In this document: positions 13,471 through 31,471 of the stretch, piece after piece | How positions within the stretch are numbered: the first letter of the stretch is position 1 | How the letters are laid out: each line of letters opens with the position of its first letter | Source: Vibrio rarus | GTDB taxonomy: Bacteria; Pseudomonadota; Gammaproteobacteria; Enterobacterales; Vibrionaceae | NCBI RefSeq assembly: GCF_024347075.1 | Contig: NZ_AP024900.1 | Coordinates: forward strand, 1,426,001-1,490,000 | Length of the DNA: 64,000 nt | Reading direction: 5' to 3' | The notes under the pieces: generated by a model | What the model was told of the DNA's origin: nothing | The model's database searches: none | The model's input: the letters and a program-made list of their open reading frames with translations, nothing else | Translations under genes and position numbers: made by a program

Positions 13471-13489
13471 TCAGTCTAGATATAATTGT

Positions 13490-13572
13490 GTGCATAATAC
13501 TCAATTGTGATACGAGACAACATACCAAAAATTGAAGTGAAGCCCAAAATGGTGCATACTTCGCTCTATAAT
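13490..13572 (+). promoter_or_regulatory. candidate BREX promoter and operator
   Basis: The 120-base leader of the WYL regulator gene contains the heptamer GTGCATA twice (13490-13496 and 13552-13558), an AATTGTG repeat, and a TATAAT hexamer at 13567-13572 about 18 bases before the start codon. No good -35 is seen, as expected for a promoter that needs or is controlled by a DNA-binding regulator. BrxR-type WYL proteins are known to bind upstream of their own BREX operon; assigning these repeats as the operator is inference. Confidence 0.35.
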
Positions 13573-13590
13573 TAATTTAGCTAAGCTCGT

Positions 13591-14475: not shown

Positions 14476-14489
14476 TCGGTTAATAAAAG

Positions 14490-15089: not shown

Positions 15090-15652
15090 TGCCTCAGTTA
15101 CAACAACGCCTAGATAAGATCCAGCCTCGTTTAGAGAGCGAAGAGTTTCTTAAAAACAAAGAACTTGGTGGTGAAATCGGCTTCTATGTGTTCGACTACA
15201 AGCCAGAATACGAGTTGAGAGTTCGCCAACACGTTTCAGTACTTGAAAAGAAACTTCAAAAGCGAGAGTACAAGTTTGCAAGCATTAATCTATTTGAAAT
15301 GATCATTAAAATGCTTGAGTCGGAAGAGATCTTAAAAAGCACTTTCGAGATGCAAACCAAACGCAGCGAACGCTTTTTCCAAAAAGCCCTGAAAGGTACT
15401 TTCGAGCAGAATCGTGTTGCTCAATTCATCATTGATGAAATGGATCTGGCTAACTGCGATTTTATTCTCATCCACGGTTTGGGTAGTGCGTGGCCAGTCG
15501 TAAGAGGACATTCACTCCTTAATGCACTTCATGCAAAAGTAGGGCTGGTGCCAACCGTATTATTTTACCCAGGCGTTTACAATAATGGTGAACTACAACC
15601 ATTCGGACGCTTAACGTCAGACAACTATTACCGAGCCTTCCAACTGGTTTAA
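15089..15652 (+). CDS. brxB: BREX protein BrxB (DUF1788)
   Basis: A 187-residue BrxB-family protein. Family features are GEIGFYVFDYKPEYELRVR (about 30-48) and the C-terminal LIHGLGSAWPVVRGHSLLNAL followed by VLFYPGVY. BrxB is required for type 1 BREX activity and is thought to assist assembly with BrxC and PglZ. It is coupled to brxA by a one-base overlap and followed after 51 bases by brxC. Confidence 0.92.
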   Translation: MPQLQQRLDKIQPRLESEEFLKNKELGGEIGFYVFDYKPEYELRVRQHVSVLEKKLQKREYKFASINLFEMIIKMLESEEILKSTFEMQTKRSERFFQKALKGTFEQNRVAQFIIDEMDLANCDFILIHGLGSAWPVVRGHSLLNALHAKVGLVPTVLFYPGVYNNGELQPFGRLTSDNYYRAFQLV

Positions 15653-15703
15653 CACCAAATTTGACAAGGCAACCTTTAAGTAATCGTTTAGCTAGGAAAT
15701 AAA

Positions 15704-18700
15704 ATGCAAGTAAAACAGCTATTTAACAAAGACATTACTCGCCAAATCAATGGCGTAGTTAAAGCAGATCAGCTCGGTAACGAAACAGTCTTTACAGAAT
15801 TAGATGAATACGTAGTGACATCTGAACTTCATGAACACATTACACAGTTCTTTGACTACTACATGCCATCTGTCGATAACCCTGATGAAGCATCAAAAAC
15901 TGGTAAGTCTGGCATCTGGGTATCTGGCTTCTTCGGTTCAGGTAAATCGCACTTCATTAAAATCATGTCTTACTTGCTTAAGAATGAGGCGACATCTCAC
16001 AGCGGTATCACCAAAAAAGCGATTGAGTTCTTTGAGGAAAAACTAAGCGAAGACCAAATGTTGCTTGGTGACATGCGTAGAGCTATCCAAAAAGATAACC
16101 ACGTGATCCTGTTTAACATAGACAGTCGTGCAGATACCGATGACAAAGAAGATGCGATCCTCAAGGTATTCCTAAAAGTATTTAACGAATATCTAGGTTA
16201 CTCATCAGATCACCCTCACCTAGCAAACCTAGAGCGTACCTTCGATCAACAAGGTCAGTTTGATGATTTTAAAGCGAAATTCAAAGAAATTTCGGGTAAA
16301 GAGTGGGTGGATGTACGACACAACTACTACCACTACTTGGATCAGTTAATTGATACCTTCTCTCACCTCACAGAACAGAGTGAAGAGTCGAGTGAACTGG
16401 CTATCGAAATGCTTGATGAGAACTTCACACTCGATATCCAAAATTTTTGTAAGTGGGTTAGCCAGTTCCTAGAGCAAAACCCAGAAAGTCGTATCAGCTT
16501 CTTCGTGGATGAGATCGGTCAGTTCATCGGTCAAAACACCCAAATGATGCTCAAACTTCAAACCATCACAGAGAACTTGGGTACACACTGTAATGGTAAA
16601 GCATGGGTTGTCGTGACATCTCAAGAAGATATCGATGCTGTACTAGGTAAGATGCAGGAAGGCTCACGTAAAAACGACTTTTCTCGTATCCAACAGCGTT
16701 TCCAACGTCTTTCTCTATCTAGTTCGAACGTAAACGAAGTTATCGAAAAACGTCTACTAGACAAAACTGAGCCTGCACAAGTTGCCCTAGCCTCTCTGTA
16801 TGAGCAGAAAGGTGATATTATCCGCAGTCAGCTTAGCTTTGAAAAAACCAATACCGCTGAATTTTCTAACTTCTCTGGTATAGATAACTTTGTTTCTAGC
16901 TATCCGTTTGCCCCTTATCAGTACAACCTGATTCAGAAAGTATTCTCTGGAATCAGTCAAACTGGTGCTGCTGGTACACACCTTGCTAAAGGTGAACGCT
17001 CACTGATTGAAGCTTTCCAAACCGCAACAAATCAATTCTCAGATGATGATATTGGTCGCCTAATTCCGCTTTACAGCTTCTATCCTTCCATCAAGAAGTT
17101 CTTGGATACGGCTGTAGTGCGTGACATTAACCACGCTGCTGAGAAAAGTTCGATCTCAGATTTCTCAGTAAAAGTTCTACAAACACTGTTCATGATCCGC
17201 TATGTGGAAGAGATGAAATCGACCATCGATAACATCGTAACTCTTTGTATCTCGGAGGTTGATCAAGATAAACGTGAACTGCGCATCAAGATTACAGATA
17301 GCCTAGATACTCTAGAGAATAACCTACTTATCTCTCGCCAGAATGACGAATACATTTTCCTGACCAATGAAGAAAAGGAAATTGAAAAAGAGATCCAGAA
17401 TACAGACATCGAAACGTCAGATGAAACACTGGAGTTAAGTAAGATTCTGTTTGACGAAATCCTAAAGAAAAGCAAAGTCTACCGTTACCCAGAAAACAAC
17501 CAAGACTTCCCTGCTTCCCGCTTCTGTAACGGTCAGCCTTTTGAAAAAGGTTCAACGGACAATGACCTATGCTTGAAGATCATCTCACCAATTGACGCAA
17601 GTTACGATGAAATGAGTGATGCGGTTTGTGGTAATGAATCAAAAGAAACGGTACTGATTAAACTTCAAGATCACCCACGCCTGTTCTCGGAGCTTCGTAC
17701 CTACATCCGCACCGCTAAATATACTCGTAAGAACTCTGGTCGTGATGCTGAAATGGAACTGCTTATTCGTGCCAAAGCAGCAGAGAACAGTGCGAGACGC
17801 AAACAAATTGTTATCGACCTTGAAGACATTATCAAAGAGTCTGACTTCTACCTGTTAGGTCAAAACTACAATGCAAAAGGCACATCCTCTACTGCAATTA
17901 TCGAGAACGCTTACCATCAGTTCATTGAAGACACGTTTGATAAACTGAAATACGTACAACCGTATAAAGGCAGCATCAGAGAGCAGATCCAACAAACCTT
18001 GATTGTTGACGATCTAAGCCAGATGAACATCGACCTTACTGATGTAGAAGCAAATCCAAGAGCACTACTAGAACTTGAGCAGCATATTTCGATCAGTGAT
18101 GAGTATAACCGTACTCTAACGGCTGGTGATTTAGTGAAGAAATTCTCTCGTAGACCGTTTGGCTGGCATGATAACGAAATCATTCTGATGATTGCCCGTC
18201 TTGCTGCATCTGACAAAATCAAGTTCCAGGCAAACCAACAACATGTACCACTTCGTGGAGCGTTTGAGCACCTTGATAAGCCAGCGAAGCGTGCAAACCT
18301 ACGAATTCGTAAGGTTCAAAAGCAATCAGATGCCAACCTAAAGAAAGCATCAAAACTGTATAAAGACGTATTTGAGAAAAACGCTCCAGCTTCAGAGAGT
18401 GAGTTACACACCCAAGCCATCAATGCATTTAAAGCTATTCTGGCTAAACTGAAAGACTTTAAGGCAAAATCAACGACTGGTCGCTACCCAGGTACTATCG
18501 TCATCGAAGAAGGCATCGATATGCTGAATATCCTAGTGGAGCAACAAGGCAGCTATAAGTTTATTGATGAGTTCCTACGTCAAGGCAATGACCTAGAAGA
18601 GTTCATCGAAGAGTACGAAGAGATCGAAGTCTTCTACGACAAACACTTCAACACTTGGCAAAACTTGGCAACAGCGTTAAATGTTGAGTTTGCAAAAAAC

Positions 18701-19423
18701 CGAAAACTACTTGAGACCTCTTCTGAAGCAAAAGCTGCATTAGAGAAGCTAGAAGCGATCTACAACAGCAAACAGCCTTATGGAAAGATCAAGCAGATTA
18801 AACCTCAAATAGACATCGTAGCGGGTGTTAATAACGACCTACTGAACGCTCGCAGAGCTGACGTAACAAGCAAGATTGAAACTGCCATCCTTGACGTACA
18901 GCAACATATTGCTGACTGTCATGCACCTGACACCATCAGTAATCAAGCACTGCGACCTTTACAATTATCTATTAAGCGCCTTGAAAGCCTGATGAGCATC
19001 GCTGAAATCAATGAAGAGTTACGTAGCTCCGACAACCTTGTGGAAGATGCCGAAGCCATTATTAACAGCTACATCGACCAGCAAGAAAAAGAAGCTAAGC
19101 GCTTAGAAGAGCAACGTAAAGCTGACGAAACGAAAAGTAACGAACCAAACTCCAATGGCTCACTAGGTTTAGACGAACCGAATAGCCATACAGGTTACAA
19201 CACGACTAACACAGGTGGTAAAGAGACTGGAACCATTAATGAGCCAACGCCAAGCAAACCTGCTGGTAAAAAAGTAGTGACCGTTAAACCAAGTACCATC
19301 TTCCAAGAGGTAGCGCATAGTGCTTACCTAGAAACCGAAGAAGAGCTTGATAAGTACCTAGCTGCGTTAAAGTCTGAACTCTCTGGGCTTATCGCTGCAA
19401 ACCACAAAGTGCGCATCAAATAA
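15704..19423 (+). CDS. brxC: BREX protein BrxC, AAA+ ATPase
   Basis: A 1239-residue AAA+ ATPase, the largest helper of the system. Walker A is GFFGSGKS at residues 75-82, and the Walker B/sensor region is SFFVDEIGQFIG (about 265). Long helical middle and C-terminal parts follow, with a low-complexity polar linker near residues 1145-1190 (SNEPNSNGSLG, TTNTGGKETG) and a final conserved helical tip. BrxC is essential for defence in type 1 BREX. A hairpin separates it from pglX, which may set the ratio of the two proteins. Confidence 0.95.
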   Translation: MQVKQLFNKDITRQINGVVKADQLGNETVFTELDEYVVTSELHEHITQFFDYYMPSVDNPDEASKTGKSGIWVSGFFGSGKSHFIKIMSYLLKNEATSHSGITKKAIEFFEEKLSEDQMLLGDMRRAIQKDNHVILFNIDSRADTDDKEDAILKVFLKVFNEYLGYSSDHPHLANLERTFDQQGQFDDFKAKFKEISGKEWVDVRHNYYHYLDQLIDTFSHLTEQSEESSELAIEMLDENFTLDIQNFCKWVSQFLEQNPESRISFFVDEIGQFIGQNTQMMLKLQTITENLGTHCNGKAWVVVTSQEDIDAVLGKMQEGSRKNDFSRIQQRFQRLSLSSSNVNEVIEKRLLDKTEPAQVALASLYEQKGDIIRSQLSFEKTNTAEFSNFSGIDNFVSSYPFAPYQYNLIQKVFSGISQTGAAGTHLAKGERSLIEAFQTATNQFSDDDIGRLIPLYSFYPSIKKFLDTAVVRDINHAAEKSSISDFSVKVLQTLFMIRYVEEMKSTIDNIVTLCISEVDQDKRELRIKITDSLDTLENNLLISRQNDEYIFLTNEEKEIEKEIQNTDIETSDETLELSKILFDEILKKSKVYRYPENNQDFPASRFCNGQPFEKGSTDNDLCLKIISPIDASYDEMSDAVCGNESKETVLIKLQDHPRLFSELRTYIRTAKYTRKNSGRDAEMELLIRAKAAENSARRKQIVIDLEDIIKESDFYLLGQNYNAKGTSSTAIIENAYHQFIEDTFDKLKYVQPYKGSIREQIQQTLIVDDLSQMNIDLTDVEANPRALLELEQHISISDEYNRTLTAGDLVKKFSRRPFGWHDNEIILMIARLAASDKIKFQANQQHVPLRGAFEHLDKPAKRANLRIRKVQKQSDANLKKASKLYKDVFEKNAPASESELHTQAINAFKAILAKLKDFKAKSTTGRYPGTIVIEEGIDMLNILVEQQGSYKFIDEFLRQGNDLEEFIEEYEEIEVFYDKHFNTWQNLATALNVEFAKNRKLLETSSEAKAALEKLEAIYNSKQPYGKIKQIKPQIDIVAGVNNDLLNARRADVTSKIETAILDVQQHIADCHAPDTISNQALRPLQLSIKRLESLMSIAEINEELRSSDNLVEDAEAIINSYIDQQEKEAKRLEEQRKADETKSNEPNSNGSLGLDEPNSHTGYNTTNTGGKETGTINEPTPSKPAGKKVVTVKPSTIFQEVAHSAYLETEEELDKYLAALKSELSGLIAANHKVRIK

Positions 19424-19450
19424 CTAAACGGAACAAATTATAGATTGAAG

Positions 19451-19475
19451 CCACGCTCATAGAGCGTGGATTTTC
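19451..19475 (+). terminator. hairpin between brxC and pglX
   Basis: Perfect 7-base stem CCACGCT / AGCGTGG with a CATAG loop, followed by ATTTTCT. It has the form of a weak rho-independent terminator or attenuator inside the operon, 20 bases before the pglX start. Confidence 0.55.
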
Positions 19476-19495
19476 TAACTGAATAGAGACTTAGA

Positions 19496-22400
19496 ATGAA
19501 TACAAACAAACTAAAAGCTTACGCACCAAAAGCTCGTATCGCTTTTATGGATGCAGTAGAGAAAAAAGCAGCTACGCTCGGTTTATACACTGATCGAATC
19601 GCAGACATGTCTACTGATGGCGATAACGCAGTAATTGAAGGGCGTATCTTCACTCGCAAGCAAGGTCAGCAGCGTAACCAGTTAGTAAGACGCATCAACG
19701 AGCTTGGTACTACGAATGGTAAGTTAGATTTAGAGCTAGGCTTTAAACAGTTCGTCAATGAAACCGCTTTTACTTGGTTTAACCGTTTAACAGCAATCCG
19801 TTTCATGGAAATCAACGACTACCTCGATCATGGCTACCGTGTATTGAGTAAAGGTGAAAACGCTTTATTTGGTGAAGGTTTTGAAATTCTTGGTGCTGCG
19901 GCAGATATTGCTGATGATTTAGGTTTAAACAAAGACCAAATCATCGACATGGTGCTCGATGGCGGCAAAGAAGAAGAGCTATACCGCACCATTCTGCTTG
20001 GTCAATGTCACCAGTTAAGTGGAGCAATGCCCCAAATTTTTGGTGGCATAGGGTTTGAGAAACTTGATGACGCAACAGAGCTTCTCCTACCTGACAACCT
20101 AACCAAGACGGATTCCATCTTAAAAGATCTGATCAATGAAGTACCAGAAGATAACTGGACTGAAATTGAAGTGATCGGTTGGCTTTACCAATTCTACATC
20201 TCGGAATACAAAGATACCGTCATCGGTAAAGTGGTAAAAACAGAAGATATCCCAGCGGCGACACAGTTATTCACGCCTAACTGGATTGTGAAATACATGG
20301 TCCATAACTCGCTTGGACGTAAGTGGTTGGCTACCTACCCAGACTCTGAACTAAAAGATAAAATGGAGTATTACATTAATCCCGCAGAGCAAAGCGAAGA
20401 GGTTATCGAGCAACTTAAAGCGATAACGCCAAAAAGCATTGATCCTGAAACCATCAAAGTGATCGATCCCGCTTGCGGAAGTGGACACATTCTGGTTGAA
20501 GTCTATGATGTTCTTCGTGAAATCTACCTTGAGCTAGACTACCGTCCTCGTGAAATTCCAGAGCTTATCTTAACCAAGAACATCTTTGCCCTTGATATTG
20601 ATGACAGGGCGGTTCAAATGGCAAGTTTCGCATTGCTAATGAAGGCTCGTGAAGATGATAAACGTATATTTAGTCGTGACATTACTCTTAATATCCACTC
20701 TATCCAGTCTACTGAAAGCTGGGATGTTAATCAGCTTTGGAATGATCTAGATCTAGAGGGTCAGAGGCAAACAGGCTCAACAGCTGATCTTTTCGCATCC
20801 AATGCTCCTGAAAGCATTAATTTGAGCGATAAGAGCAAGCGATATATCGAGTTGCTCAATTACCTTAAAGAAACCTTCATTGAAGCTAAAAGCTTGGGTT
20901 CATTAATTCAGATAGACGCTGGGTATTCCGAAACGGTAGAACAATTGAAGTCTGAGAGTTTGAAAAAATTATCTTCAAACTCTCAGGTTGCTGAGCTGGC
21001 TGCTCAGCAGGTACTGCCTGTTTTATATCAAGCACAACTTCTAGCTACTACGTATGATGTAACTGTGGCAAATCCACCTTATAACGGTAGTAAATACCAA
21101 ACACCAAAAATAAAAAAGTATCTTAAAGATAATTTTAAAGGCTATGAAAAAGATTTATTTTCTGCATTTATAGCTCGAAATCTACAACTAACTAATAAAC
21201 ATGGTGAATTAGGGTTTATGACACCATTCGTTTGGATGTTTATATCAAGCTATGAAAAGCTTAGATCTAATTTGATTAATAAAGAGATAATATCAACACT
21301 AGTACAGCTTGAATATTCTGGTTTTGATGGAGCAACGGTACCGATTTGTACTTTCACTTTGACAAAAGGCCATATTCCCAATTACAAAGGCTCTTATATT
21401 CGTCTATCTGAGTTTAAAGGTGCTGCAAACCAAGGACCAAAAACGCTTGAAGCAATACATTACTCTAAATGTAACTATCTTTTTGAAGCAAAGTCTGATG
21501 ATTTCAGTCGCATACCAGGTAACCCTATAGCCTATTGGGCTTCAGAATCTACCTTCAGTCAGTTTGGCAAAAGTTCATTAGGTGAAATAGGAAAAGTTAG
21601 ACAAGGACTATTAACCTCGAATAATGATCGTTTTCTACGAAGATGGACTGAAGTTTCAATATCTAAAACTGGATTAAACTTAGATAGAGAGTCTGCTCGA
21701 TTAAGTGGAAAAAAATGGTTTCCAATCAACAAAGGGGGGGACTACCGAAGATGGTATGGAAATCTTGAATTTGTTGTTAATTGGGAAAATGATGGTGAAG
21801 AACTACATAACTTTATCATATCAAAATATGATTATTTAAATGGAAATTCAGGTCTTGTACTTAAAAGAGGGAATCCCTACTTTGAGCCTGCCGTGACTTG
21901 GACCGATATTAGTAGTTCATATTTTGGTGCTAGATATATGCCTAAAGGAATGCTTTATGAGAAAGGTGGATCATGTGCTTATTACAACAACAATAAAGTA
22001 CTGTTAGCATGTTTATGTTCAAATGTTACAACTCACTTTCTCAGATTTTTAAGTCCCACTCTTCATTATCAAGTAGGAGACATTGCAAACCTTCCAGTAA
22101 TTGATGATATCGACTTAGATACTACCAATGAAATAGAAATGATACATGATAGAATCGTTAATATTTCTAAGTTGGACTGGGATAGCCAGGAAACTTCTTG
22201 GGATTTTAATACTTTACCTCTTGTGAACTATGTAGATGATAAAAACCTGGAAGAAAACTACAATGCTCTTATTAATGACCAAAATAACAGCTTATACGAA
22301 TTAAAGAACCTTGAAGAACGAAACAATACAATTTTTACGATGCTATTTGGTTTAACGGATGAACTTGAATGTGAAATGCAGTTAAAGAGCTTAACTCTTT

Positions 22401-23251
22401 CTACCAATCCACACTTTAACGGAAAAAGAACAGACTCGGATTCTGCCAAAGAACTAATTAGGCAATCAAAGACTTTCATTGAACTACTTTCTTTTTGCAT
22501 AGGATGCATAATGGGTCGCTACTCACTAGACACTGGCGGCCTACTTTATGCTAATTCAGGAAATAGTGGTTTCAAAGAACTTGTCTCTGAACATGCATAT
22601 AAAAGCTATGCTGTTGACGATGATGGTATTGTACCACTAGCGGATGAAGAGTGGATCTTCGAAGATGATGCTACTATTCGCTTCCGTGAATTTGTAAAAA
22701 CCGTTTGGGGAGAAGAACATCTTCAAGAAAACTTAGATTTTGTTGCAGAAAGCCTGTGCTTAGATGCTATCAAAGCCAAGAAAAATGAAAGCTCTATGGA
22801 TACCATTAGACGCTACTTCTCAACACAGTTCTTTAAAGACCATGTGAAGACCTATAAGAAGCGCCCTATCTACTGGCTATTCAGTTCTGGTAAGGCTAAG
22901 GCATTTGAATGTTTAGTTTACCTACACCGTTACAATGAAAGTACGCTGTCACGCATGCGGACTGAATATGTAACACCACTGATGGGTAAACTGGAGAGTC
23001 ATAAAGGCATTCTTGAGGATTCCAAGCCGACAGCTTCAGGTGCTGAGCTTCGAGCTATCGACAAAGAACTAAAAACCATCGAGAAGAAACAAGCTGAACT
23101 AGCCACTTTCGATGAAGAGTTGAAGCACTTGTCAGAGATGAAGATCTCCCTTGATCTTGATAATGGCGTAAAAGAAAACTACGGTAAATTTGGTAACTTA
23201 CTCGCAGATGCTAAAGCCATTCACGGCAAGAAGCCTGCCGAAATCAAATAA
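19496..23251 (+). CDS. pglX: BREX DNA adenine methyltransferase PglX
   Basis: A 1251-residue site-specific N6-adenine methyltransferase that marks host DNA and is needed for BREX defence. The SAM motif is DPACGSGH at residues 324-331 and the catalytic motif is NPPY at 526-529. An N-terminal helical domain precedes the methylase. The middle and later part (about residues 400-1050) should hold the target recognition region, and a coiled-coil tail ends the protein. The DNA from about 20.7 to 22.6 kb is clearly AT-richer than either end of the gene, which suggests exchange of the specificity region. Hairpins flank the gene on both sides. The recognition sequence cannot be inferred here. Confidence 0.95.
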   Translation: MNTNKLKAYAPKARIAFMDAVEKKAATLGLYTDRIADMSTDGDNAVIEGRIFTRKQGQQRNQLVRRINELGTTNGKLDLELGFKQFVNETAFTWFNRLTAIRFMEINDYLDHGYRVLSKGENALFGEGFEILGAAADIADDLGLNKDQIIDMVLDGGKEEELYRTILLGQCHQLSGAMPQIFGGIGFEKLDDATELLLPDNLTKTDSILKDLINEVPEDNWTEIEVIGWLYQFYISEYKDTVIGKVVKTEDIPAATQLFTPNWIVKYMVHNSLGRKWLATYPDSELKDKMEYYINPAEQSEEVIEQLKAITPKSIDPETIKVIDPACGSGHILVEVYDVLREIYLELDYRPREIPELILTKNIFALDIDDRAVQMASFALLMKAREDDKRIFSRDITLNIHSIQSTESWDVNQLWNDLDLEGQRQTGSTADLFASNAPESINLSDKSKRYIELLNYLKETFIEAKSLGSLIQIDAGYSETVEQLKSESLKKLSSNSQVAELAAQQVLPVLYQAQLLATTYDVTVANPPYNGSKYQTPKIKKYLKDNFKGYEKDLFSAFIARNLQLTNKHGELGFMTPFVWMFISSYEKLRSNLINKEIISTLVQLEYSGFDGATVPICTFTLTKGHIPNYKGSYIRLSEFKGAANQGPKTLEAIHYSKCNYLFEAKSDDFSRIPGNPIAYWASESTFSQFGKSSLGEIGKVRQGLLTSNNDRFLRRWTEVSISKTGLNLDRESARLSGKKWFPINKGGDYRRWYGNLEFVVNWENDGEELHNFIISKYDYLNGNSGLVLKRGNPYFEPAVTWTDISSSYFGARYMPKGMLYEKGGSCAYYNNNKVLLACLCSNVTTHFLRFLSPTLHYQVGDIANLPVIDDIDLDTTNEIEMIHDRIVNISKLDWDSQETSWDFNTLPLVNYVDDKNLEENYNALINDQNNSLYELKNLEERNNTIFTMLFGLTDELECEMQLKSLTLSTNPHFNGKRTDSDSAKELIRQSKTFIELLSFCIGCIMGRYSLDTGGLLYANSGNSGFKELVSEHAYKSYAVDDDGIVPLADEEWIFEDDATIRFREFVKTVWGEEHLQENLDFVAESLCLDAIKAKKNESSMDTIRRYFSTQFFKDHVKTYKKRPIYWLFSSGKAKAFECLVYLHRYNESTLSRMRTEYVTPLMGKLESHKGILEDSKPTASGAELRAIDKELKTIEKKQAELATFDEELKHLSEMKISLDLDNGVKENYGKFGNLLADAKAIHGKKPAEIK

Positions 23252-23260
23252 GTAGAAGTC

Positions 23261-23282
23261 ATAGCAGCCTTCGGGCTGCTAT
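23261..23282 (+). terminator. UUCG-loop hairpin after pglX
   Basis: Perfect 9-base stem ATAGCAGCC / GGCTGCTAT closed by a TTCG tetraloop in a C(UUCG)G context, an extra-stable hairpin, 10 bases after the pglX stop. There is no immediate T-run, so it may act as a partial terminator, an mRNA 3'-end stabiliser or a processing barrier. Confidence 0.6.
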
Positions 23283-23380
23283 GTTGCCTATTAAGGCTCG
23301 GTTTTTATCCCTCAACCTCTCTCGCTGAGTTCCGTTAAATGATACAATTAACTCAGAGAAAAATTCTAAGTAAGGTCAGC

Positions 23381-24523
23381 ATGATACAGTCCGTTAGCAT
23401 CGATAATTTCAAGTCATTAGTAGACTTCAACATCGAGTTGTCAAACTTCAACGTATTAGTCGGTTTAAATGGTGCGGGTAAGTCTACCGTACTCCAAGGT
23501 ATCGATTTATTGTCGCAAATGATGCAAGGCGAAATCGACCAATGGCTGACTCAGAGACAATGGGAAAGCTCAGATCTAAACTCTAAGCTAAGCAGCAAGA
23601 AGAACATTGCTTTCACTGTAAAGTTTGCACTTAACCCAGAGCAGACTTTAACGTGGACTGGTAGCTTCAATCTTACTTCCCTACACTGCACAACTGAAAC
23701 CGTAAAGCTTGGAGTAGATACACTTCTTCAAGTTCAGAAAGGCACAGTGAAGTACCTTTCTAACAAGGGTAAATCAAGCCAATCTGACATTATGTTCACC
23801 TACCAAGGCTCTATTCTTTCAGCTTTAAAAGAGCATAACCTAGACGACTCACTATTAAGCTTCAAACAAAGCTTACTTAATGTTCGCTCGCTAGATCTGC
23901 TTTCACCAGAACAACTTAGAGCAAAATCCATTTCAGCTAATGGCAAATTAGGCTTAGGTGGTGAAAGGCTATCAGCTTTCTTGCATGAGATTAAAGCCGA
24001 TGAAAAGAACAAGATAAGCAGTGAGCTAAAAAAAGTTTATTCGCAGCTAGCAAGCTTTAAAACCAAAGCTCTCTCAAATGGTGAGAAGCAACTCGATGTT
24101 ACGGAGAAGTTCGGTGAAAAAGACATCACGACATCTGCTCGACATCTAAACGATGGCATGCTGCGACTCTTGGCTGTCCTATCTCAGATCGGATTAAAAG
24201 ACGATTTTTTGCTATTTGATGAAATAGAAAACGGCATCAACCCAGAGCTTATTGAGTTTCTCATTGATCACTTAGTTAATGCTAAACAGCAAGTTATGCT
24301 GACCACTCACAGCCCTCTCGTTCTTAACTTTATTGAAGACGATGTAGCCAAACAGAGCGTGACTTATCTGTACAAGACCTCGGAGGGTAAGACAAAAGCC
24401 ATCAAGCTATTTGATATACCTTCTATTGCCGAAAAGCTGAGTTTCATGGGTCCTGGGGAGGCATTTATCGATACAGATATGCTTTCTATCTGGAAAGAAA
24501 TAGTTCAAATATCTGAGGGTTAA
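23381..24523 (+). CDS. ABC-type (OLD/RecF-like) AAA ATPase embedded in the BREX operon
   Basis: A 380-residue ATPase with an SMC/OLD-type head. Walker A is GLNGAGKST at residues 28-36, Walker B is LLFDE with Asp280-Glu281, and a switch-type TTHSPLVLNF motif follows. The start at 23381 is preferred over an in-frame ATG at 23339 because AAGG lies just upstream and the domain begins directly with MIQSVSIDNFKSL. No nuclease domain is fused; the next gene, 2 bases away, encodes a TOPRIM-like protein. ATPase plus TOPRIM is the layout of OLD, Gabija GajA and PARIS defence modules. It is not a core BREX gene. Its role here as an added defence effector is inference. Confidence 0.82.
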   Translation: MIQSVSIDNFKSLVDFNIELSNFNVLVGLNGAGKSTVLQGIDLLSQMMQGEIDQWLTQRQWESSDLNSKLSSKKNIAFTVKFALNPEQTLTWTGSFNLTSLHCTTETVKLGVDTLLQVQKGTVKYLSNKGKSSQSDIMFTYQGSILSALKEHNLDDSLLSFKQSLLNVRSLDLLSPEQLRAKSISANGKLGLGGERLSAFLHEIKADEKNKISSELKKVYSQLASFKTKALSNGEKQLDVTEKFGEKDITTSARHLNDGMLRLLAVLSQIGLKDDFLLFDEIENGINPELIEFLIDHLVNAKQQVMLTTHSPLVLNFIEDDVAKQSVTYLYKTSEGKTKAIKLFDIPSIAEKLSFMGPGEAFIDTDMLSIWKEIVQISEG

Positions 24524-24525
24524 AC

Positions 24526-25272
24526 ATGCACTTTATGTTTAGTGGTGAAGGTCCTACAGATATGGGAAAGTGCTTCCCTGCTGCTGATGTATGTACAGGG
24601 GCGAACTATGTTCCAGGTGAAATGGCGCACATTGTCGACAAGTTGACAAATAATTGGCTTATCCAAAATAGGCAATACGAGCTTTCACATCTCGATTTCC
24701 ACATGGTGACATTTGTATCAAAATCACACCTAGTAAACTCTAAACCACCAGCTAAAAGTAAAAAAAGCATGGGGCTTCGAGGAAAAGGAACACCACCAGA
24801 AACCAAATACTACTACGCAAATGCACGAGCACTTGCACAACTTGCAAAACAAAAAGCTGCTGAGCTAAATGATGATGTTGTTGCCGTACTTTTTCGAGAT
24901 GCTGATGGTACGGCTTCAGCAGGACGTGGTATGTGGAAAGACAAATGGGATTCGATGGTCTTAGGATTTACCGCAGAAAACTACGAAGATAAAAGTGTTC
25001 CGATGATCCCAATGCCTAAATCAGAGGCATGGCTTTTGTGCGCATTGAAAAACAACTACCAAAATTGTAATGCGCTTGAGCAAGCTTCAGGTAATGACAA
25101 AGTCGAAAACTCACTAAAAAAGCAACTCGAAATTGTCATTGATGACCAAGACATCACAGACCCGCTTGTTGACCTAATCAAAGATGATCGTATTGACGCT
25201 TCAAAGATCAACATGGACTCCTTTGACCACTTCAAAGCTCATCTACACAAAGTATTAGCGAATGTATTGTAA
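24526..25272 (+). CDS. TOPRIM-like (DUF4276-type) partner of the embedded ATPase
   Basis: A 248-residue protein that begins with a TOPRIM-like first strand and acidic motif (FSGEGPTDMG, Glu8 and Asp12). A second acidic motif, FRDADG (Asp125, Asp127), and a late conserved PKSEAWLLCAL segment follow. The E...DxD spacing suggests a metal-dependent nuclease, as in AriB or the OLD TOPRIM domain, but homology to a named family is only by motif. It sits 2 bases after the ATPase stop and 3 bases before pglZ, so the pair is built into the BREX message. It could be a tRNA- or DNA-cleaving effector controlled by the ATPase. Confidence 0.7.
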   Translation: MHFMFSGEGPTDMGKCFPAADVCTGANYVPGEMAHIVDKLTNNWLIQNRQYELSHLDFHMVTFVSKSHLVNSKPPAKSKKSMGLRGKGTPPETKYYYANARALAQLAKQKAAELNDDVVAVLFRDADGTASAGRGMWKDKWDSMVLGFTAENYEDKSVPMIPMPKSEAWLLCALKNNYQNCNALEQASGNDKVENSLKKQLEIVIDDQDITDPLVDLIKDDRIDASKINMDSFDHFKAHLHKVLANVL

Positions 25273-25275
25273 CGT

Positions 25276-28050
25276 ATGAATATCGAAAAAATTAAACAAG
25301 CACTGAACAAAAAGTTCAAACAAGAAAACGGGCGCATCGTTTTTTGGCTAGATGTTGATAATGAGTTTAACGACTTAGTCGATACCTTAGAACTTGAATC
25401 GAATTATGACGATACACAGACCATCCATATTGATGCTCTATCCCACTTTGAAGTGAAGTATAGAATTGAGTTGCTAGAGCCGAACACAGCTTTCTTACTC
25501 TACTCAAACAAGAAGCCTAGTGAACCGACTCGTGACTGGTTATATGACATTCGACTATACGCAGAGGAGTTCTTTGCAGATAGAAGCTCGATGATCCTTA
25601 ACGAAATTGGCATGAAAATGGAGTTCCGCTCTGTTATTGCTAAGTACAAGAATTTCTTCAATAGCGATCAACGCACAGCACGTTTACTCAAAGTTCTACC
25701 GCCAAACTCTGCAACTGAGCAGCAATTGGAGTTAGCTCTTATTGCTGCAACGTTAAAGCTTGATACAGCAACTTTTACTTCGATCCTGCAAACTCTGCTT
25801 TCCAAACTCTCTGATGATTTTGATTCTGATTCTGATTCTGATTCTGATTCTGATTCTGATTCTGATTCTGAAGAGATCTTAGCTGAACTGGATAAATACA
25901 ACCTCACCAGCGCATTCTGGTCTTTCGCCAATAGTGAGATGGGTTATATCGTAGAGTCAAAAGAGGATGATGAAGTTAAACGCTCACCGACCCTTCAAGA
26001 CTTTACCGTTAAACTGCTATTCACTGAGTGTTATCAGTCACTGCTCAATAGTAACTGTACTAACGATGATGAAGTGGTAAGTCGTTTCAAAGCTCACCTT
26101 CTTCCGATTCCGACACTAGAGCAAATTGAAGCGGGTTATTCAGCCGACAGAATTGGACTCAACTCACCAAGAAGAGCGCAAGTTGTAAGCTTTATCTCAC
26201 AGCTTCGTGAAAGTCGCAGCTATCAAGATCAATACAACAAATTAGCTCACCGCATTGAGACGGATTATGAAATTGCATCGAAGCTGAAACTGGTAGAACG
26301 TGCAGATAAACTGACTCAAGTGGAGACCTTTGAGTTTGCCGATAAGCAACTATCTGTCCTTCTCGCTAAGAACATCGACACCTATGATCAAGAAGAACTC
26401 AATGCGATAGTAGCTCACCGTTTAGAAACTCACTGGTGTCATGTTAAGCCTGAATCTGCTGACACTAGCTACACCAGTGTTTACGAAGCAATTAAAACGG
26501 CTAAACAGCTATTTACCCTGAAAGCTAAGTATATCGATGGTCTAAATTTTGACTCGGCTAAATCACTTTACCGAGCTTACGAAAGTGACCTTTATCAATT
26601 TGATTCTGCATATCGTTCATTTACCGAACATGCAAACTACGTAGCCCATCACGGCTCTGATATTCTAAAGAAATTAAAACTGGTTGATACAATTGAAGAC
26701 CTTTACGTGAACTGGTACTTACATGACTTAGCGATTGAATGGGGTAAGCATGTAGATAATGACCAGTTGCTTGAAAAGTGGAATATTCCAGGTGTTCTCC
26801 GTCAATCAGACTTTTACAAAAACGAAGTTGAACGCATCTTCCAAACCAGTCAGGTCAAGCGTGTATTTGTCATCATTAGTGATGCTCTTCGTTATGAAGT
26901 TGCTCATGAAGTCCATGAACAAGTTAATAAACAGCCTCGCTCAAAATCGACCATCACCAGTCAATTAGGTGTAGTACCGAGCTATACACAATTGGGAATG
27001 GCTTCTCTACTACCTCATAAAGAGTTAACGGCACATCTGGGTAATGACGTTAAGTACAAAGCTGATGGATTGAGCACACATGGGCTTGAAAATCGCAATG
27101 CCGTTCTAGGAAAATATCAGGGAATGGCAGTTAAGTCTTCTGATGTGCTGAACTGGACAAACGAAGAAGGACGTAAAGCGGTAGCTGATGCCAGAGTAGT
27201 ATACATTTACCATGACCACATTGATGCAATCGGTGACAAGTCTGCAACAGAAAACAGCACTTTCGAAGCGTGCTCTGATGCCATTGAGCAAGTTAAATTA
27301 CTGATTGACCGTATCATTAACAAGCTCAACGGTAATAGAATTTTAGTGACTGCTGATCATGGTTTCTTATTTAAATCGAGTGAGTTACAAGAGTCAGACA
27401 AAACACCTCTTTCAGTTAAACCTGTTGGAACAGTGGAAGCGAAAAAACGTTACTTAATTGGACAACAGTTGCCTGAAGAAAGCTTCTACTGGCGTGGAAG
27501 CTTAGCTACTACTGCCAATTTATCTAGCAATGGAGATGATGCTGAGTTCATCATTCCACGAGGAACGAACCGATTTAATTTTGTTGGTGGGGCTAAATTT
27601 ATTCATGGCGGTATCATGCCACAAGAAATTTGTGTGCCTGTTCTTCGTATTGAACACTTAAAAACGACCAAGCAAAAGAGCACTGCGAAACAGAAAGTTG
27701 GTGTTGTTCCACTAACAAACGGGTTAAGGATGGTCACGATCAGCGAAAAGATTCCATTCTTGCAAACTAATGCTATCGGTGACGATTACAAAGAACGTCA
27801 ATTGGGTATCTGGATTGAAGATCAGGAAGGTAACTTGCTTTCCAACAAGGCACCAGTGCTCTTTAACTCAACGTCTACCAACTCTGATGACCGTACTCGC
27901 AGCGTAATTCTCACCCTAAATGGTGCGAGTTTTGATCGTACCGCAACCTACAAGATGATCATGTGGGATACAGAGCAAGACGATTTATATGCTACTCATT
28001 CAGTAACTATCGATCTTGCCATTCAAGACGACTTTGATGATTTTTTCTAA
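25276..28050 (+). CDS. pglZ: BREX phosphatase-like protein PglZ (type A)
   Basis: A 924-residue member of the alkaline phosphatase superfamily, a required BREX component. The metal-binding motifs are the Asp536 region (ISDALRYEVAHE) and Asp694-His695 in TADHGFLF. The N-terminal half is helical and probably contacts BrxB and PglX. Residues 183-198 are (Asp-Ser)8, encoded by eight perfect GATTCT copies, an unusual acidic linker not expected in the family. It is preceded by the TOPRIM-like gene and followed 12 bases later by brxL. Confidence 0.94.
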   Translation: MNIEKIKQALNKKFKQENGRIVFWLDVDNEFNDLVDTLELESNYDDTQTIHIDALSHFEVKYRIELLEPNTAFLLYSNKKPSEPTRDWLYDIRLYAEEFFADRSSMILNEIGMKMEFRSVIAKYKNFFNSDQRTARLLKVLPPNSATEQQLELALIAATLKLDTATFTSILQTLLSKLSDDFDSDSDSDSDSDSDSDSEEILAELDKYNLTSAFWSFANSEMGYIVESKEDDEVKRSPTLQDFTVKLLFTECYQSLLNSNCTNDDEVVSRFKAHLLPIPTLEQIEAGYSADRIGLNSPRRAQVVSFISQLRESRSYQDQYNKLAHRIETDYEIASKLKLVERADKLTQVETFEFADKQLSVLLAKNIDTYDQEELNAIVAHRLETHWCHVKPESADTSYTSVYEAIKTAKQLFTLKAKYIDGLNFDSAKSLYRAYESDLYQFDSAYRSFTEHANYVAHHGSDILKKLKLVDTIEDLYVNWYLHDLAIEWGKHVDNDQLLEKWNIPGVLRQSDFYKNEVERIFQTSQVKRVFVIISDALRYEVAHEVHEQVNKQPRSKSTITSQLGVVPSYTQLGMASLLPHKELTAHLGNDVKYKADGLSTHGLENRNAVLGKYQGMAVKSSDVLNWTNEEGRKAVADARVVYIYHDHIDAIGDKSATENSTFEACSDAIEQVKLLIDRIINKLNGNRILVTADHGFLFKSSELQESDKTPLSVKPVGTVEAKKRYLIGQQLPEESFYWRGSLATTANLSSNGDDAEFIIPRGTNRFNFVGGAKFIHGGIMPQEICVPVLRIEHLKTTKQKSTAKQKVGVVPLTNGLRMVTISEKIPFLQTNAIGDDYKERQLGIWIEDQEGNLLSNKAPVLFNSTSTNSDDRTRSVILTLNGASFDRTATYKMIMWDTEQDDLYATHSVTIDLAIQDDFDDFF
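25822..25869 (+). repeat. hexanucleotide microsatellite (GATTCT)8 inside pglZ
   Basis: Eight perfect tandem copies, in frame, encoding (Asp-Ser)8 at PglZ residues 183-198. Copy-number change by slippage would lengthen or shorten the linker by two residues per unit without shifting frame. Confidence 0.97.
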
Positions 28051-28062
28051 CGGAATTTACTA

Positions 28063-30135
28063 ATGACGACAAATGAAGAACAAATTGCACAAGAAATTAG
28101 TGATGTGAAAGACATGACTCTTGATGACCTCATGACAACTGAGTTTAAGGGACGTGTGGTTAGAAAAGACCTAACAAAACAGTTGAAGGAAGGAGCAAAC
28201 GTTCCAGTCTATGTACTTGAGTACCTACTCGGTATGTATTGTTCTGCGACTGATGAAGAGCTTATCGAACAGGGTATGGAGCGTGTTAAGAAGATCCTGA
28301 CTGATAACTATGTTCGTCCCGATGAAGCGGAAAAAGTAAAATCAATGATCCGTGAACGTGGCACTCATAAAGTCATTGATAAGATCTCTGTAAGACTCAA
28401 TCAGAAGAAAGACGTTTACGAAGCAACCCTATCTAACTTGGGAATCAAAGACGCTGTAATCCCTGCCAAAATGGTCAAAGATAATGAGAAACTGTTAACG
28501 GGCGGTATCTGGTGTATTGTCACGTTGAGTTACTTCTTTGAAGAAGGGCAAAAAACTTCCCCGTTCTCTGTGCTTGGACTGAAAGCGATTCAAATGCCCT
28601 CTATGAACATGGAAGAAGTGTTTAATGCTCGCAGAAACTTCAGCATAGACCAGTGGTTGGATTTACTTCTACGCTCTATTGGTATGGAGCCTGCGAACCT
28701 TGAGCAACGTGCAAAGTGGCATATCCTCGCTCGGATGATTCCATTCGTAGAAAACAACTACAACGTGTGTGAACTGGGTCCTCGTGGTACTGGTAAATCA
28801 CACGTCTACAAAGAGTGTTCGCCAAACTCCCTACTTGTTTCAGGTGGTCAGACAACAGTTGCTAACCTTTTCTACAACATGTCGAGTCGTCAAGTTGGTT
28901 TGGTTGGTATGTGGGATATCGTTGCCTTCGATGAAGTAGCAGGTATTCGTTTTAAAGACAAAGATGGTGTTCAGATAATGAAAGACTACATGGCTTCTGG
29001 GTCATTTAGTCGTGGGCGAGACTCTATCGAAGCTAAAGCATCGATGGTGTTTGTCGGTAACATTGATCAAAGTGTCGAAACGTTGGTTAAGACAAGCCAC
29101 CTTCTGGCTCCCTTCCCCACAGAAATGATTGATTCTGCATTTTTTGATCGTTTTCATGCTTACATTCCAGGGTGGGAAATTCCAAAAATGCGCCCTGAGT
29201 TTTTCACTAATCGCTTCGGCTTGATCACTGACTATCTTGCTGAGTATATGCGTGAAATGCGAAAACACGCCTTTGCAGATGCTATCGATAAGTTCTTTAA
29301 GCTCGGTAACAACTTAAACCAGCGTGACGTTATTGCTGTGCGCAGAACAATATCAGGCTTACTTAAGTTGCTTGTCCCTAACGGTGAGTATGACAAAGAA
29401 GATGTACGTACCTGCCTTACCTATGCTCTTGAAGTAAGAAGACGAGTAAAGGAACAGCTCAAGAAAATTGGTGGTATGGAGTTTTTCGATGTGAACTTCT
29501 CGTACATCGATAACGAAACGCTAGAAGAATTTTTCGTTAATGTACCAGAGCAAGGTGGTTCTCAGATCATTCCTCCTGGCACACCAAACGCAGGCGTTAT
29601 TCACTTTGTAAGCCCAGGAGCAAACGGTAAACTTGGTGTCTTCCGTATCGAGACTCAAAAGACTGCGGGTAACGGCAAGCTAACCACTTCTGGGTTAGGT
29701 TCGGATACTGGAGCGAAAGAGCAAGTGAAAGTCGGCTTTGAATATTTTAAAGGCAACCTATCACGCATTGCCGCAAATACTCAATTCTCGGATTTTGAGT
29801 TCCACCTGCACTTTGTTGATCTTCAAATGTCTGGCAACTCTCACACCTCAAGCCTTGCTTCGCTAATCGCTAACTGTTCGACCCTGTTAGGGAAACCAAT
29901 GCAAGAATCGATGGTGGTTTTAGGCTCAATGACATTAGGTGGAGTGCTAAATCCCGTTCAGGATTTAGCAAGCTCTATGCAGGTGGCTCTTGAAGCTGGT
30001 GCAACTAAGATCTTGATACCTATGGCTTCTGCTACGGATATTCCGACTGTGCCAGCAGAGACATTTACGAAATTTCAAGTTAGCTTTTACAGTGATCCCG
30101 TTGATGCGGTTTATAAAGCACTAGGAGTCAATTAA
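28063..30135 (+). CDS. brxL: BREX protein BrxL (AAA+/Lon-like)
   Basis: A 690-residue BrxL protein, the type 1 BREX hallmark. The AAA+ core carries Walker A GPRGTGKS at residues 239-246 and a Walker B-like WDIVAFDEVAG. The C-terminal Lon-like domain (about 500-690) ends FYSDPVDAVYKALGVN. BrxL forms DNA-binding ring assemblies and is needed for phage restriction but usually not for methylation. It is the last BREX gene; a 13-base-pair hairpin lies 56 bases downstream. Confidence 0.95.
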   Translation: MTTNEEQIAQEISDVKDMTLDDLMTTEFKGRVVRKDLTKQLKEGANVPVYVLEYLLGMYCSATDEELIEQGMERVKKILTDNYVRPDEAEKVKSMIRERGTHKVIDKISVRLNQKKDVYEATLSNLGIKDAVIPAKMVKDNEKLLTGGIWCIVTLSYFFEEGQKTSPFSVLGLKAIQMPSMNMEEVFNARRNFSIDQWLDLLLRSIGMEPANLEQRAKWHILARMIPFVENNYNVCELGPRGTGKSHVYKECSPNSLLVSGGQTTVANLFYNMSSRQVGLVGMWDIVAFDEVAGIRFKDKDGVQIMKDYMASGSFSRGRDSIEAKASMVFVGNIDQSVETLVKTSHLLAPFPTEMIDSAFFDRFHAYIPGWEIPKMRPEFFTNRFGLITDYLAEYMREMRKHAFADAIDKFFKLGNNLNQRDVIAVRRTISGLLKLLVPNGEYDKEDVRTCLTYALEVRRRVKEQLKKIGGMEFFDVNFSYIDNETLEEFFVNVPEQGGSQIIPPGTPNAGVIHFVSPGANGKLGVFRIETQKTAGNGKLTTSGLGSDTGAKEQVKVGFEYFKGNLSRIAANTQFSDFEFHLHFVDLQMSGNSHTSSLASLIANCSTLLGKPMQESMVVLGSMTLGGVLNPVQDLASSMQVALEAGATKILIPMASATDIPTVPAETFTKFQVSFYSDPVDAVYKALGVN

Positions 30136-30190
30136 ACTAAGAAATAAACACTTTTAATACAAAGTTTTACTCTTCCATTTCGTTTGTTGG

Positions 30191-30220
30191 TAGATAATCA
30201 CGGGAAACCGTGGTTATCTA
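30191..30220 (+). terminator. hairpin ending the BREX operon
   Basis: 13-base-pair stem TAGATAATCACGG / CCGTGGTTATCTA (one G-T pair) with a GAAA tetraloop, 56 bases after the brxL stop. There is no T-run, so termination may need rho. Confidence 0.6.
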
Positions 30221-30386
30221 TATTCGCAAAAGAAATATACAAAACTCAACACATATCTATACAAGCTGTATGGTCTTTTCTTAGGTTGTAGATACTATTC
30301 TTTATTTAAATATTGAACGCCCTCTCGTCCAGATCTTCTCTTTAGCCGGTAATCCCCCCATTAATAATTGCATTCAATCGTAGAAT

Positions 30387-31211
30387 CTATGCTGCAACTT
30401 GTAGTGGTGGGTACCCTCCATTAGCTAAATGTGGACGCTGGTGATTGTAGAACCATAGCCACTGAGTTGCTTGATCTTGAACCTCTTCTAAGCTGTCGAA
30501 CAGGTACTTACTCACCAAGCTGAACCTTACGGTTCGATTAAATCTTTCGATATACGCATTTTGTTGTGGGTTCCCTGGCTGAATATAGTCTATTCGGATG
30601 CCATGCTTGTCTGCCCACTTTGTAAATAAGTGGCTAATAAATTCGGGACCATTATCACAACGTATCGCTATCGGTTTCTGACGTTGTTCAATTAGGTTAT
30701 CTAAGATCCTTGTGACGCGCTCTGCTGGCATCGAAAAATCAGGCTCTGCGGCTAAACCCTCACGTTTGTAGTCATCTATCACATTGAATAAGCGATATTT
30801 CCGCCCATCCGATAGTTGGTCATGCATAAAATCGACCGACCACACTTGGTTCGCTTTGATGGGTTCCTTGAGTGGCTCAGGTGCATGACGATTTAGGCGA
30901 CGCTTAGGCTTGATACGTAAATTCAATGACAACTCACAGTAGATCCGATAAACCCGCTTGTGGTTCCATTTATACCCTTCCAAATGGCGAAGATGATGGA
31001 AGCACATGCCAAATCCCCAGTCGGATCTTTCCTCGCTGTTGCACAGCTCTAGGAGCAAGTTAGCAATGTGCTCATTCTCTGATTGCAACTTAGGCTCATA
31101 GCGATAGCACGTCTCACTAATTTTAAACCAGCGACAGGCATTTCTAATACTGACATGTTGATTCGCCACTGAATTCTGAGCCATCAAACGACGCTCACAG
31201 GGCTTCACCAC
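30387..31211 (-). CDS. IS3-family transposase OrfB (DDE integrase)
   Basis: 274 residues with the rve integrase core. The catalytic triad is Asp127 (WSVDFMHD), Asp186 (IRCDNGPEF) and Glu222 (NAYIERFNRTVR), with the expected 35 residues between the last two. An HTH_21-type region precedes the core. The listed start is a GTG inside the overlap; the functional product is probably the OrfAB fusion made by -1 frameshifting at 31211-31217. No internal stop, so it appears intact. Confidence 0.93.
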   Translation of the reverse strand: MVKPCERRLMAQNSVANQHVSIRNACRWFKISETCYRYEPKLQSENEHIANLLLELCNSEERSDWGFGMCFHHLRHLEGYKWNHKRVYRIYCELSLNLRIKPKRRLNRHAPEPLKEPIKANQVWSVDFMHDQLSDGRKYRLFNVIDDYKREGLAAEPDFSMPAERVTRILDNLIEQRQKPIAIRCDNGPEFISHLFTKWADKHGIRIDYIQPGNPQQNAYIERFNRTVRFSLVSKYLFDSLEEVQDQATQWLWFYNHQRPHLANGGYPPLQVAA

Positions 31212-31471
31212 TTTTTTGCCATAGCTTCGGAGATAACTTCAGCTTTGAGGCGTTCCTCTGCATACATTTTCTTGAGCCGTCGATTCTCTTCTTCAAGCTC
31301 TTTCATTCGAGTCATAAGAGATGCATCCATACCACCGTATTTAGATCGCCACTTGTAGAATGTGGCGGTGCTCATGCCATGTTCTCGACAAAGCTCTTGA
31401 ATAGGGGCTCCAGCCTCTGCTTGCTTTAAGATCGCTAAGATCTGACTGTCCGTGTAACGTGATTTTTTCAT
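31205..31471 (-). CDS. IS3-family transposase OrfA (helix-turn-helix)
   Basis: 88 residues of the HTH_8 transposase type: an N-terminal RYTDSQILAILKQAE helix-turn-helix with CREHGMSTATFYKWRSKYGG, then a leucine-zipper-like coiled coil (LEEENRRLKKMYAEERLKAE). The frame ends in the slippery heptamer A AAA AAG (31217-31211 on the minus strand) shortly before its TGA, which moves ribosomes into OrfB. It binds the element ends and regulates transposition. Confidence 0.92.
   Translation of the reverse strand: MKKSRYTDSQILAILKQAEAGAPIQELCREHGMSTATFYKWRSKYGGMDASLMTRMKELEEENRRLKKMYAEERLKAEVISEAMAKKW
31211..31217 (-). promoter_or_regulatory. programmed -1 ribosomal frameshift site
   Basis: Heptamer A AAA AAG in the OrfA reading frame, 3 bases before the OrfA stop codon. 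It is the classic bacterial -1 slippery sequence and would fuse OrfA to OrfB. Confidence 0.85.

Follow-up and report, generated by a model that had tools for sequence, protein, structure and literature searches.

What are two genes outside the BREX core doing in the middle of a BREX operon? The question is raised by a 64,000-nt stretch of Vibrio rarus DNA (contig NZ_AP024900.1, positions 1,426,001–1,490,000 of the forward strand), hereafter the window, which contains a complete type 1 bacteriophage exclusion (BREX) operon. Between its genes pglX and pglZ lie two open reading frames (ORFs) at window positions 23381–25272. As originally predicted, both are open on the + strand and neither is a BREX core gene. 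The first encodes an SMC/Rad50/PtuA-like ABC ATPase and the second a small protein that, on its predicted fold, is TOPRIM-like. We consider it moderately probable that the two form a mobile and autonomous anti-phage cassette plugged into the pglX–pglZ slot, with the ATPase as sensor or gate and its partner as a putative nuclease. The pair recurs with three kinds of restriction system, and the cargo of the slot is exchanged between closely related BREX operons.

The ATPase and its TOPRIM-like partner

Both proteins are full-length matches to PDC-M25A/B of PADLOC-DB 2023, and the pair thus belongs to a family already catalogued as a candidate. The ATPase matches PDC-M25A over residues 1–378 (E = 9.4e-157, 520 bits) and the partner PDC-M25B over residues 1–247 (E = 7.2e-88, 292.5 bits). 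The genes are adjacent on the same strand, their relatives keep this order, and nothing structural separates the pair from the catalogued family. We take PDC to stand for "phage defence candidate." These candidates come from "guilt by embedding" in other defence systems, and validation is pending for most core-defensome PDCs (PMC12988326, which refers them to a preprint of Payne et al. 2024; this and the other papers cited by PMC number are represented here by parts of their text). The literature searched, a scope that excludes preprints and most subscription papers, contained no test of PDC-M25 and nothing on DUF4276, the family to which the partner is linked below.

In Pfam, the ATPase matches generic AAA families only. 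Its Walker A motif GLNGAGKST (residues 28–36) and the D280-E281 dyad are where they had been placed, and together with a signature motif and an H-loop they support the assignment to the SMC/OLD-type ABC ATPases. Residues G28, G33, K34, Q39, D258, G259, R262, D280, E281, and H310 are shared by all 57 aligned ATPases. Similarly, E8, D12, D125, D127, and E167 are common to all 66 aligned partners (the window, 62 of the 80 genome loci described below, and three viral loci). As these residues are invariant in 57/57 ATPases and 66/66 partners, the motifs of the two proteins are not due to chance.

The kinship of the partner with TOPRIM proteins had been proposed from Glu8 and Asp125-x-Asp127 alone. 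Both motifs are confirmed, and the proposal is now supported by more than motifs. The glutamate follows the first strand (residues 2–7) and the conserved DxD a later one (118–123), as in TOPRIM domains. The AlphaFold model (predicted local distance difference test score, pLDDT, 91.2; predicted template modeling score, pTM, 0.90) consists of strand 2–7, helix 32–47, strand 61–65, helix 92–114, strand 118–123, helix 135–150, and strand 157–160, with additions of three short strands following the first core strand and one short helix following the second. E8 lies after the first core strand and D125/D127 after the third. This order corresponds to the TOPRIM core topology, β1-α1-β2-α2-β3-α3-β4, a Rossmann-like arrangement that also occurs outside TOPRIM. 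Fold searches of the PDB with the model gave no decisive match, and no AriB, Gabija, or Septu chain was prominent, which excludes nothing. The partner profile matched none of 177,635 sequences of solved structures at E ≤ 10.

A two-step profile link runs through DUF4276. The partner itself scores 13.6 bits against Pfam DUF4276 (PF14103), below the gathering score of 30.2 (E = 0.083). In hhalign comparisons, the M25B profile aligned with 32 DUF4276 rows at P = 2.1e-6, versus a lowest P of 0.022 among 16 control families; this 32-row set was assembled after a 7-row alignment had given P = 0.024. DUF4276 in turn aligned with the OLD TOPRIM domain at P = 5.3e-5, whereas P values for the top four of 16 controls were 0.36 to 0.42; the direct comparison of M25B with OLD TOPRIM gave P = 0.28. 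In the five DUF4276 loci with two open frames, the frame with an early EG motif was chosen, and OLD rows were kept only if this motif was early (19 of 30); the motif agreement in the comparison is therefore favored by the choice of rows. Searched against the PDB, the 7-row DUF4276 profile gave one chance-level match (E = 1.7), and a 3-row DUF4435 profile gave eight, all to unrelated proteins (best E = 0.0084). A regular expression, composed after viewing both families and descriptive only, matches 72 of 85 M25B ORFs and a single one of 846 other ORFs of at least 150 amino acids, itself a DUF4276 protein. Taken together, the modeled topology, the placement of the motifs, and the link via DUF4276 indicate that the partner is TOPRIM-like; its invariant acidic residues and predicted fold suggest that it is probably a nuclease.

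The surrounding operon contains brxA, brxB, brxC, pglX, pglZ of type A, and brxL, in the order that defines type 1 BREX, preceded by a regulator gene. Its features are the following:

13591–14475, + strand: WYL-domain regulator, BrxR-like by position (Pfam WYL, 6.1e-12); BrxR is the name we presume for it
14490–15089, + strand: brxA (Pfam BrxA, 5.9e-43)
15089–15652, + strand: brxB (Pfam BrxB, 9.5e-35)
15704–19423, + strand: brxC (NF033441, 1092.8 bits)
19496–23251, + strand: pglX, BREX-1 methyltransferase, upstream border of the slot (NCBIfam NF033452, 1380 bits)
23252–23380, + strand: gap between pglX and the pair, with a hairpin at 23260–23283 (folding z −2.83)
23381–24523, + strand: ATPase PDC-M25A, SMC/Rad50/PtuA-like ABC ATPase head, 380 amino acids (PADLOC)
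24526–25272, + strand: PDC-M25B, probable effector, 248-amino-acid TOPRIM-like protein related to DUF4276 (PADLOC, E = 7.2e-88)
25276–28050, + strand: pglZ, BREX-1 PglZ type A, downstream border of the slot (TIGR02687, E = 2.5e-229)
28063–30135, + strand: brxL (TIGR02653, 1212.5 bits)

The spacings had been given correctly: two bases separate the ATPase stop from the partner start, and three separate the partner stop from pglZ (25276). Among relatives, adjacent A and B ORFs are at most 14 nt apart in 83 of 84 pairs (from 89 loci), a 4-nt overlap being the commonest arrangement, with gaps computed from the first possible start codon. The expectation that the pair is translated with the BREX genes therefore stands for the tight pglZ side, and co-expression of the pair with pglZ and brxL is probable. 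It is less secure on the loose pglX side, where pglX stops at 23251, leaving 129 bases before position 23381; the ATPase frame is also open from 23339 (394 amino acids). Given this gap and the strong hairpin within it, a single message with the upstream half of the operon is uncertain. The hairpin (23260–23283) has a perfect 10-bp stem and a TTCG loop, and none of 200 shuffled sequences folds as well. It is possibly an attenuator or a message end between the operon halves. Hairpins of other sequence occur at the same place in two loci of the same genus (L114 and L116; L numbers are our locus labels) and in a V. parahaemolyticus plasmid (L125), and that of L116 is followed by five T, like a terminator. 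However, perfect stems of at least 8 bp follow pglX in only 6 of 34 BREX loci (the window, L019, L048, L114, L116, and L125) and are not a general feature. Across positions 13300–30400, a promoter scan listed no sigma-70-like site between pglX and the pair. Terminator-like sites in this region (10, versus 12.8 in shuffles) are no commoner than expected, so that the pglX hairpin, listed on the minus strand only, is a lead and no more. The sequence TGATACAAT at 23340–23348 was noticed by eye only.

Within pglZ, at 25815–25871, the hexamer TGATTC is near-perfectly repeated in frame (9.5 copies), giving a Ser-Asp tract near residues 180–198, and a change in copy number would preserve the frame. 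Directly 3' of brxL (30387–31471) are two ORFs that, judged by eye, resemble IS3-type transposases. Farther away, an ORF at 51289–51921 contains tandem repeats at 51415–51519, with units such as GAAAAAATTGTTGAAATT.

Recurrence of the pair with restriction systems

A contig scan identified 128 relatives, and 80 loci were examined. The ATPase sequence adjoins the B gene in 79 of these, the exception (L073) starting at a contig edge, and likewise in all three viral-contig loci. The 80 loci comprise 26 in BREX-1, 3 in BREX-2 (L080 and L083 by PADLOC models of the neighbors, L090 by gene clusters only), and 4 in type I restriction-modification (R-M) systems (L021 by HsdS and HsdR domains, L078 by an HsdR-type gene, L086 and L063 by cluster). 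In 13 of the 26 BREX-1 loci, the pair immediately follows pglX or is fused to it, and in 2 it immediately precedes pglX. The fusion is found in Candidatus Laterigemmans baculatus (L096, 5284–9996), where a single 1571-amino-acid frame encodes a whole PglX followed by the ATPase, with the partner gene next. In BREX-2, the pair directly precedes pglY; other genes separate it from pglX in L080 and L090, and no pglX was seen upstream in L083. In the type I R-M loci, the pair lies between a fused M/S-type gene and hsdR (L078), between a truncated gene of that cluster and hsdR (L086), or after hsdR plus a further gene and not after an M or S gene (L021). In the genus of the window, relatives 36–39% identical were found in 6 of 226 other genomes, and all six follow hsdR-hsdM-hsdS-type genes, which were read from the sequence and share gene clusters with those confirmed by Pfam in L021 and L078.

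The pair tree was built from 84 of 95 loci; of the others, 10 had breaks or were too short and 1 lacked the ATPase. Two long branches, L101 and L012, were left out of label counting, leaving 82 pairs of which 62 were labeled and 20 unlabeled. On this concatenated tree, the BREX-1 label needs 13 changes, 12 of them forced by well-supported branches. The pair has therefore moved into or out of BREX-1 repeatedly, in numbers that do not separate gain from loss. The type I R-M label needs three changes, and BREX-2 forms one clade. The pair thus repeatedly re-associates with restriction systems: BREX-1, BREX-2, and type I R-M. It also occurs elsewhere. Of 42 tree rows carrying none of the three labels, 21 (20 genome loci and one viral contig) are flanked by 5 kb or more on each side, the remaining 21 having shorter or unmeasured flanks. 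L029, for instance, follows a SIS/GATase gene that we take to be glmS-like, and L020 follows a phage GPA gene.

BREX-1 itself is rare: within the genus, 8 of 227 genomes reach the PglZ cut-off, and within the class 7 of 369 do so. The B gene was found in 7 of 72,556 plasmid records. Among five plasmids inspected, the pair lies in the pglX–pglZ slot in Acinetobacter and Azotobacter and in the brxC–pglX slot in Oceanisphaera and one Moellerella, and the Hydrogenimonas plasmid has no BREX near the pair. Phage records gave no tblastn match at 1e-5, the three viral loci coming from viral contigs, and no DNA match was found in the E. coli genomes.

Several loci stack M25 with further modules. In BREX loci L010 and L093, the second ATPase pair is PARIS-like with DUF4435; L058 has a DUF4435 fragment at the contig edge, and L033 an ATPase plus DUF4276 pair. 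In L025 (14374–18186), two dynamin-like GTPase genes occupy the pglX–pglZ slot while M25 occupies the brxC–pglX slot. BREX-2 stacks candidate cassettes too, with PDC-M28B and PDC-M28C between pglX and the M25 pair in L080 (5896–8761).

Cargo and borders of the pglX–pglZ slot

A survey of type 1 BREX loci, suggested with the original prediction, revealed that the slot genes differ between operons and that many are known or candidate defence cassettes:

L114: TrlF/Ppl-like ATPase plus a 410-amino-acid gene with weaker pAgo-type PADLOC matches
L125 (plasmid): TrlF family ATPase plus RNA-binding domain protein, by its annotation
L131: HEC-01A/B
L119: PDC-S02 (PD-DExK-like) plus Shedu
L127: RecQ-DprA-DUF262 (GmrSD)
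L128, 7634–9004 (Acinetobacter pittii plasmid BREX): 456-amino-acid protein for which Pfam and PADLOC gave no match within the limits applied
L130: nucleotidyltransferase-HEPN gene pair among other genes
L010 (Oceanisphaera): PARIS-like ATPase/DUF4435 pair
L117: 148-amino-acid ORF
L120, L121: ORFs without identification
L011, L112, L113, L116, L122, L126, L129: no slot gene

In L120 (8157–11972), pglX is in several pieces while the slot still has two ORFs. In a tree of 42 hand-picked PglZ rows, a non-random sample from which L028 and L058 were dropped as too short, the PglZ closest to that of the window is in L115 (73% over tree columns). There, JukA (E = 1.5e-115) and JukB (8.4e-141) directly precede pglZ (53–1710); the contig starts at this point and pglX is out of view.

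Slot cargo differs even between BREX operons whose long flanking blocks are 86–97% identical in DNA. Four Acinetobacter loci, L008 (carrying M25), L127, L128, and L129, share long blocks with 89–95% identity that cover pglZ, brxL, the two ends of pglX, and, where present, brxC. Homology is lost in the central part of pglX, presumably its target-recognition part, with a 78–85% identical block inside this break in two of four comparisons. It is lost again between the end of pglX and the start of pglZ, and resumes at L008 positions 14,730–14,750, pglZ starting at 14,738. The same pattern was observed in Marinobacter between L024 (GmrSD plus M25) and the empty slot of L113 (outer blocks 93 and 86%, pglX end 83%), and a similar one between L125 and L117. 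Closely related BREX operons thus exchange slot cargo, and the borders of the exchange lie close to the pglX stop and the pglZ start.

Possible roles and comparison with known systems

In the autonomous cassette that we favor, the ABC ATPase would sense or gate; a phage cue would cause it to release or activate the TOPRIM-like, metal-dependent nuclease, which would cut nucleic acid and stop phage growth or the cell. Family, invariant motifs, predicted fold topology, gene coupling, recurrence with restriction systems, and cargo exchange are computed results, whereas nuclease activity, ATPase-driven activation, and an anti-phage effect are inferred. The pair is likely a swappable second line of protection. 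Alternatively, the ATPase could watch the BREX methyltransferase complex or its inhibitors and unleash the nuclease once a phage inhibitor disables BREX, much as PARIS responds to Ocr. We find this restriction guard doubtful. It would account for the pair immediately following pglX or being fused to it in 13 BREX-1 loci, and immediately preceding it in 2, for its place directly after hsdS-type genes in six same-genus loci and between an M/S-type gene (truncated in L086) and hsdR in L078 and L086, and more generally for its recurrence in three kinds of modification-based system, often beside a methyltransferase or specificity gene. The natural PglX-ATPase fusion argues in the same direction, as does the finding that Ocr activates PARIS and also inhibits BREX (PMC12839542; PMC11341690). 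However, the fusion is 1 of 26 BREX-1 loci and could reflect a lost stop or a sequence error. The slot also takes PDC-S02 with Shedu, HEC-01, RecQ-DprA-GmrSD, and PARIS-like modules, with JukAB before pglZ; in BREX-2 the pair adjoins pglY and not pglX, and in L021 it follows neither an M nor an S gene. Moreover, the BREX-embedded PARIS of Salmonella D23580 was not activated by Ocr or Gp5, and its deletion left defence undiminished (PMC11341690). As the slot takes unrelated cassettes and some pairs have neither BREX nor type I R-M in view, a trigger by BREX failure is possible but poorly supported by embedding alone. We think it unlikely that the pair is a general guard, whose ATPase would dock on the PglX or HsdM/HsdS core and whose nuclease would fire when a phage anti-restriction protein occupies that subunit.

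It is improbable that the pair is a BREX accessory tuning methylation or PglZ activity with no separate defence. The 2–3-base spacing within the pair and to pglZ, and the PglX-ATPase fusion, would fit such a role, but pairs occur in type I R-M operons and with no BREX in view, and closely related BREX operons (L129 and L113) lack it. Least credible, and very improbable, is a passenger or addiction module persisting by linkage or a toxin-antitoxin-like effect, with no phage protection of its own. The cassette is indeed mobile and patchy, and ATPase partners of nucleases can restrain them. Nevertheless, the identified slot cargo elsewhere is mostly known or candidate defence genes, several pieces being without identification, and the active-site residues of the pair are invariant across hosts of several phyla. 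What looked like an isolated oddity is now a testable pattern: a sharp-bordered slot in some BREX operons, cargo swapped among close relatives, and M25 in three restriction architectures. Should the guard reading hold, M25 would join PARIS as the second family watching restriction for sabotage; were it the general guard, the slot would be a plug-in socket for traded backups, and the fusion would name the guarded protein. If the pair is no guard, the slot offers a simple route to new defence systems, and embedding need not mean functional coupling.

The original prediction had likened the layout to OLD, Gabija, and PARIS. The likeness holds for an OLD-type ATPase with a TOPRIM-like partner and does not extend to membership of Gabija or of PARIS proper. 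Unlike OLD and the Gabija protein GajA, the pair consists of two separate proteins and not one ATPase-TOPRIM chain; its neighbors are pglX and pglZ, with no UvrD-type helicase gene GajB. PARIS (AriA/AriB) is closer, with an ABC ATPase, a separate TOPRIM-type gene, and embedding in BREX, which is on record for PARIS, including that of Salmonella D23580, and for BrxU (PMC11341690). However, the ATPase scores 520 bits against M25A versus 85 against the best AriA model, no AriB is among the seven PADLOC matches of M25B (E ≤ 0.01), a DUF4435 profile gave no match to the partner, and hhalign against eight DUF4435 rows gave P = 0.53. The layout of HEC-01A/B, an ATPase with a DUF4276 protein, is also alike, and this system likewise occupies the pglX–pglZ slot of an E. 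coli plasmid (L131). The ATPases are related (HEC-01A, E = 1.6e-29) and the partners distantly so (the hhalign P of 2.1e-6 above). M25B is longer than the DUF4276 partner in L131 (248 versus 189 amino acids), and its SEAW and DxD motifs contrast with HE(Y/F)EA-like and DxY motifs, read by eye, in six of the seven DUF4276 proteins from the same genus.

Genes between pglX and pglZ were counted in a 2024 study that we believe to be that of Went et al. 2024. The two genes occur together in about 9,000 genomes, and in about 7,000 of these at least one further gene lies between them (PMC11341690). OLD-ABC ATPases with TOPRIM and other nucleases have been described as backups across BREX systems, and a layered model was proposed (PMC12839542, Rakesh and Krishnan 2026). 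The idea of two layers of defence is therefore already in print as a hypothesis. Vibriophages do encode a BREX inhibitor, OrbA (PMC11580459). WonAB, an OLD-ABC ATPase with a PD-(D/E)xK-type partner, is anti-phage in V. cholerae and E. coli (PMC12137116), demonstrating that ATPase-nuclease pairs are able to work alone. The BREX-embedded backups (PMC12839542; PMC11341690) represent the same class of arrangement, and the parts of these papers covered here do not contain M25 by name, sharp swap borders, or a PglX-ATPase fusion. To this class, the present analysis adds the TOPRIM likeness of the partner, the recurrence of the pair with restriction systems, the swap borders of the slot, and the PglX-ATPase fusion.

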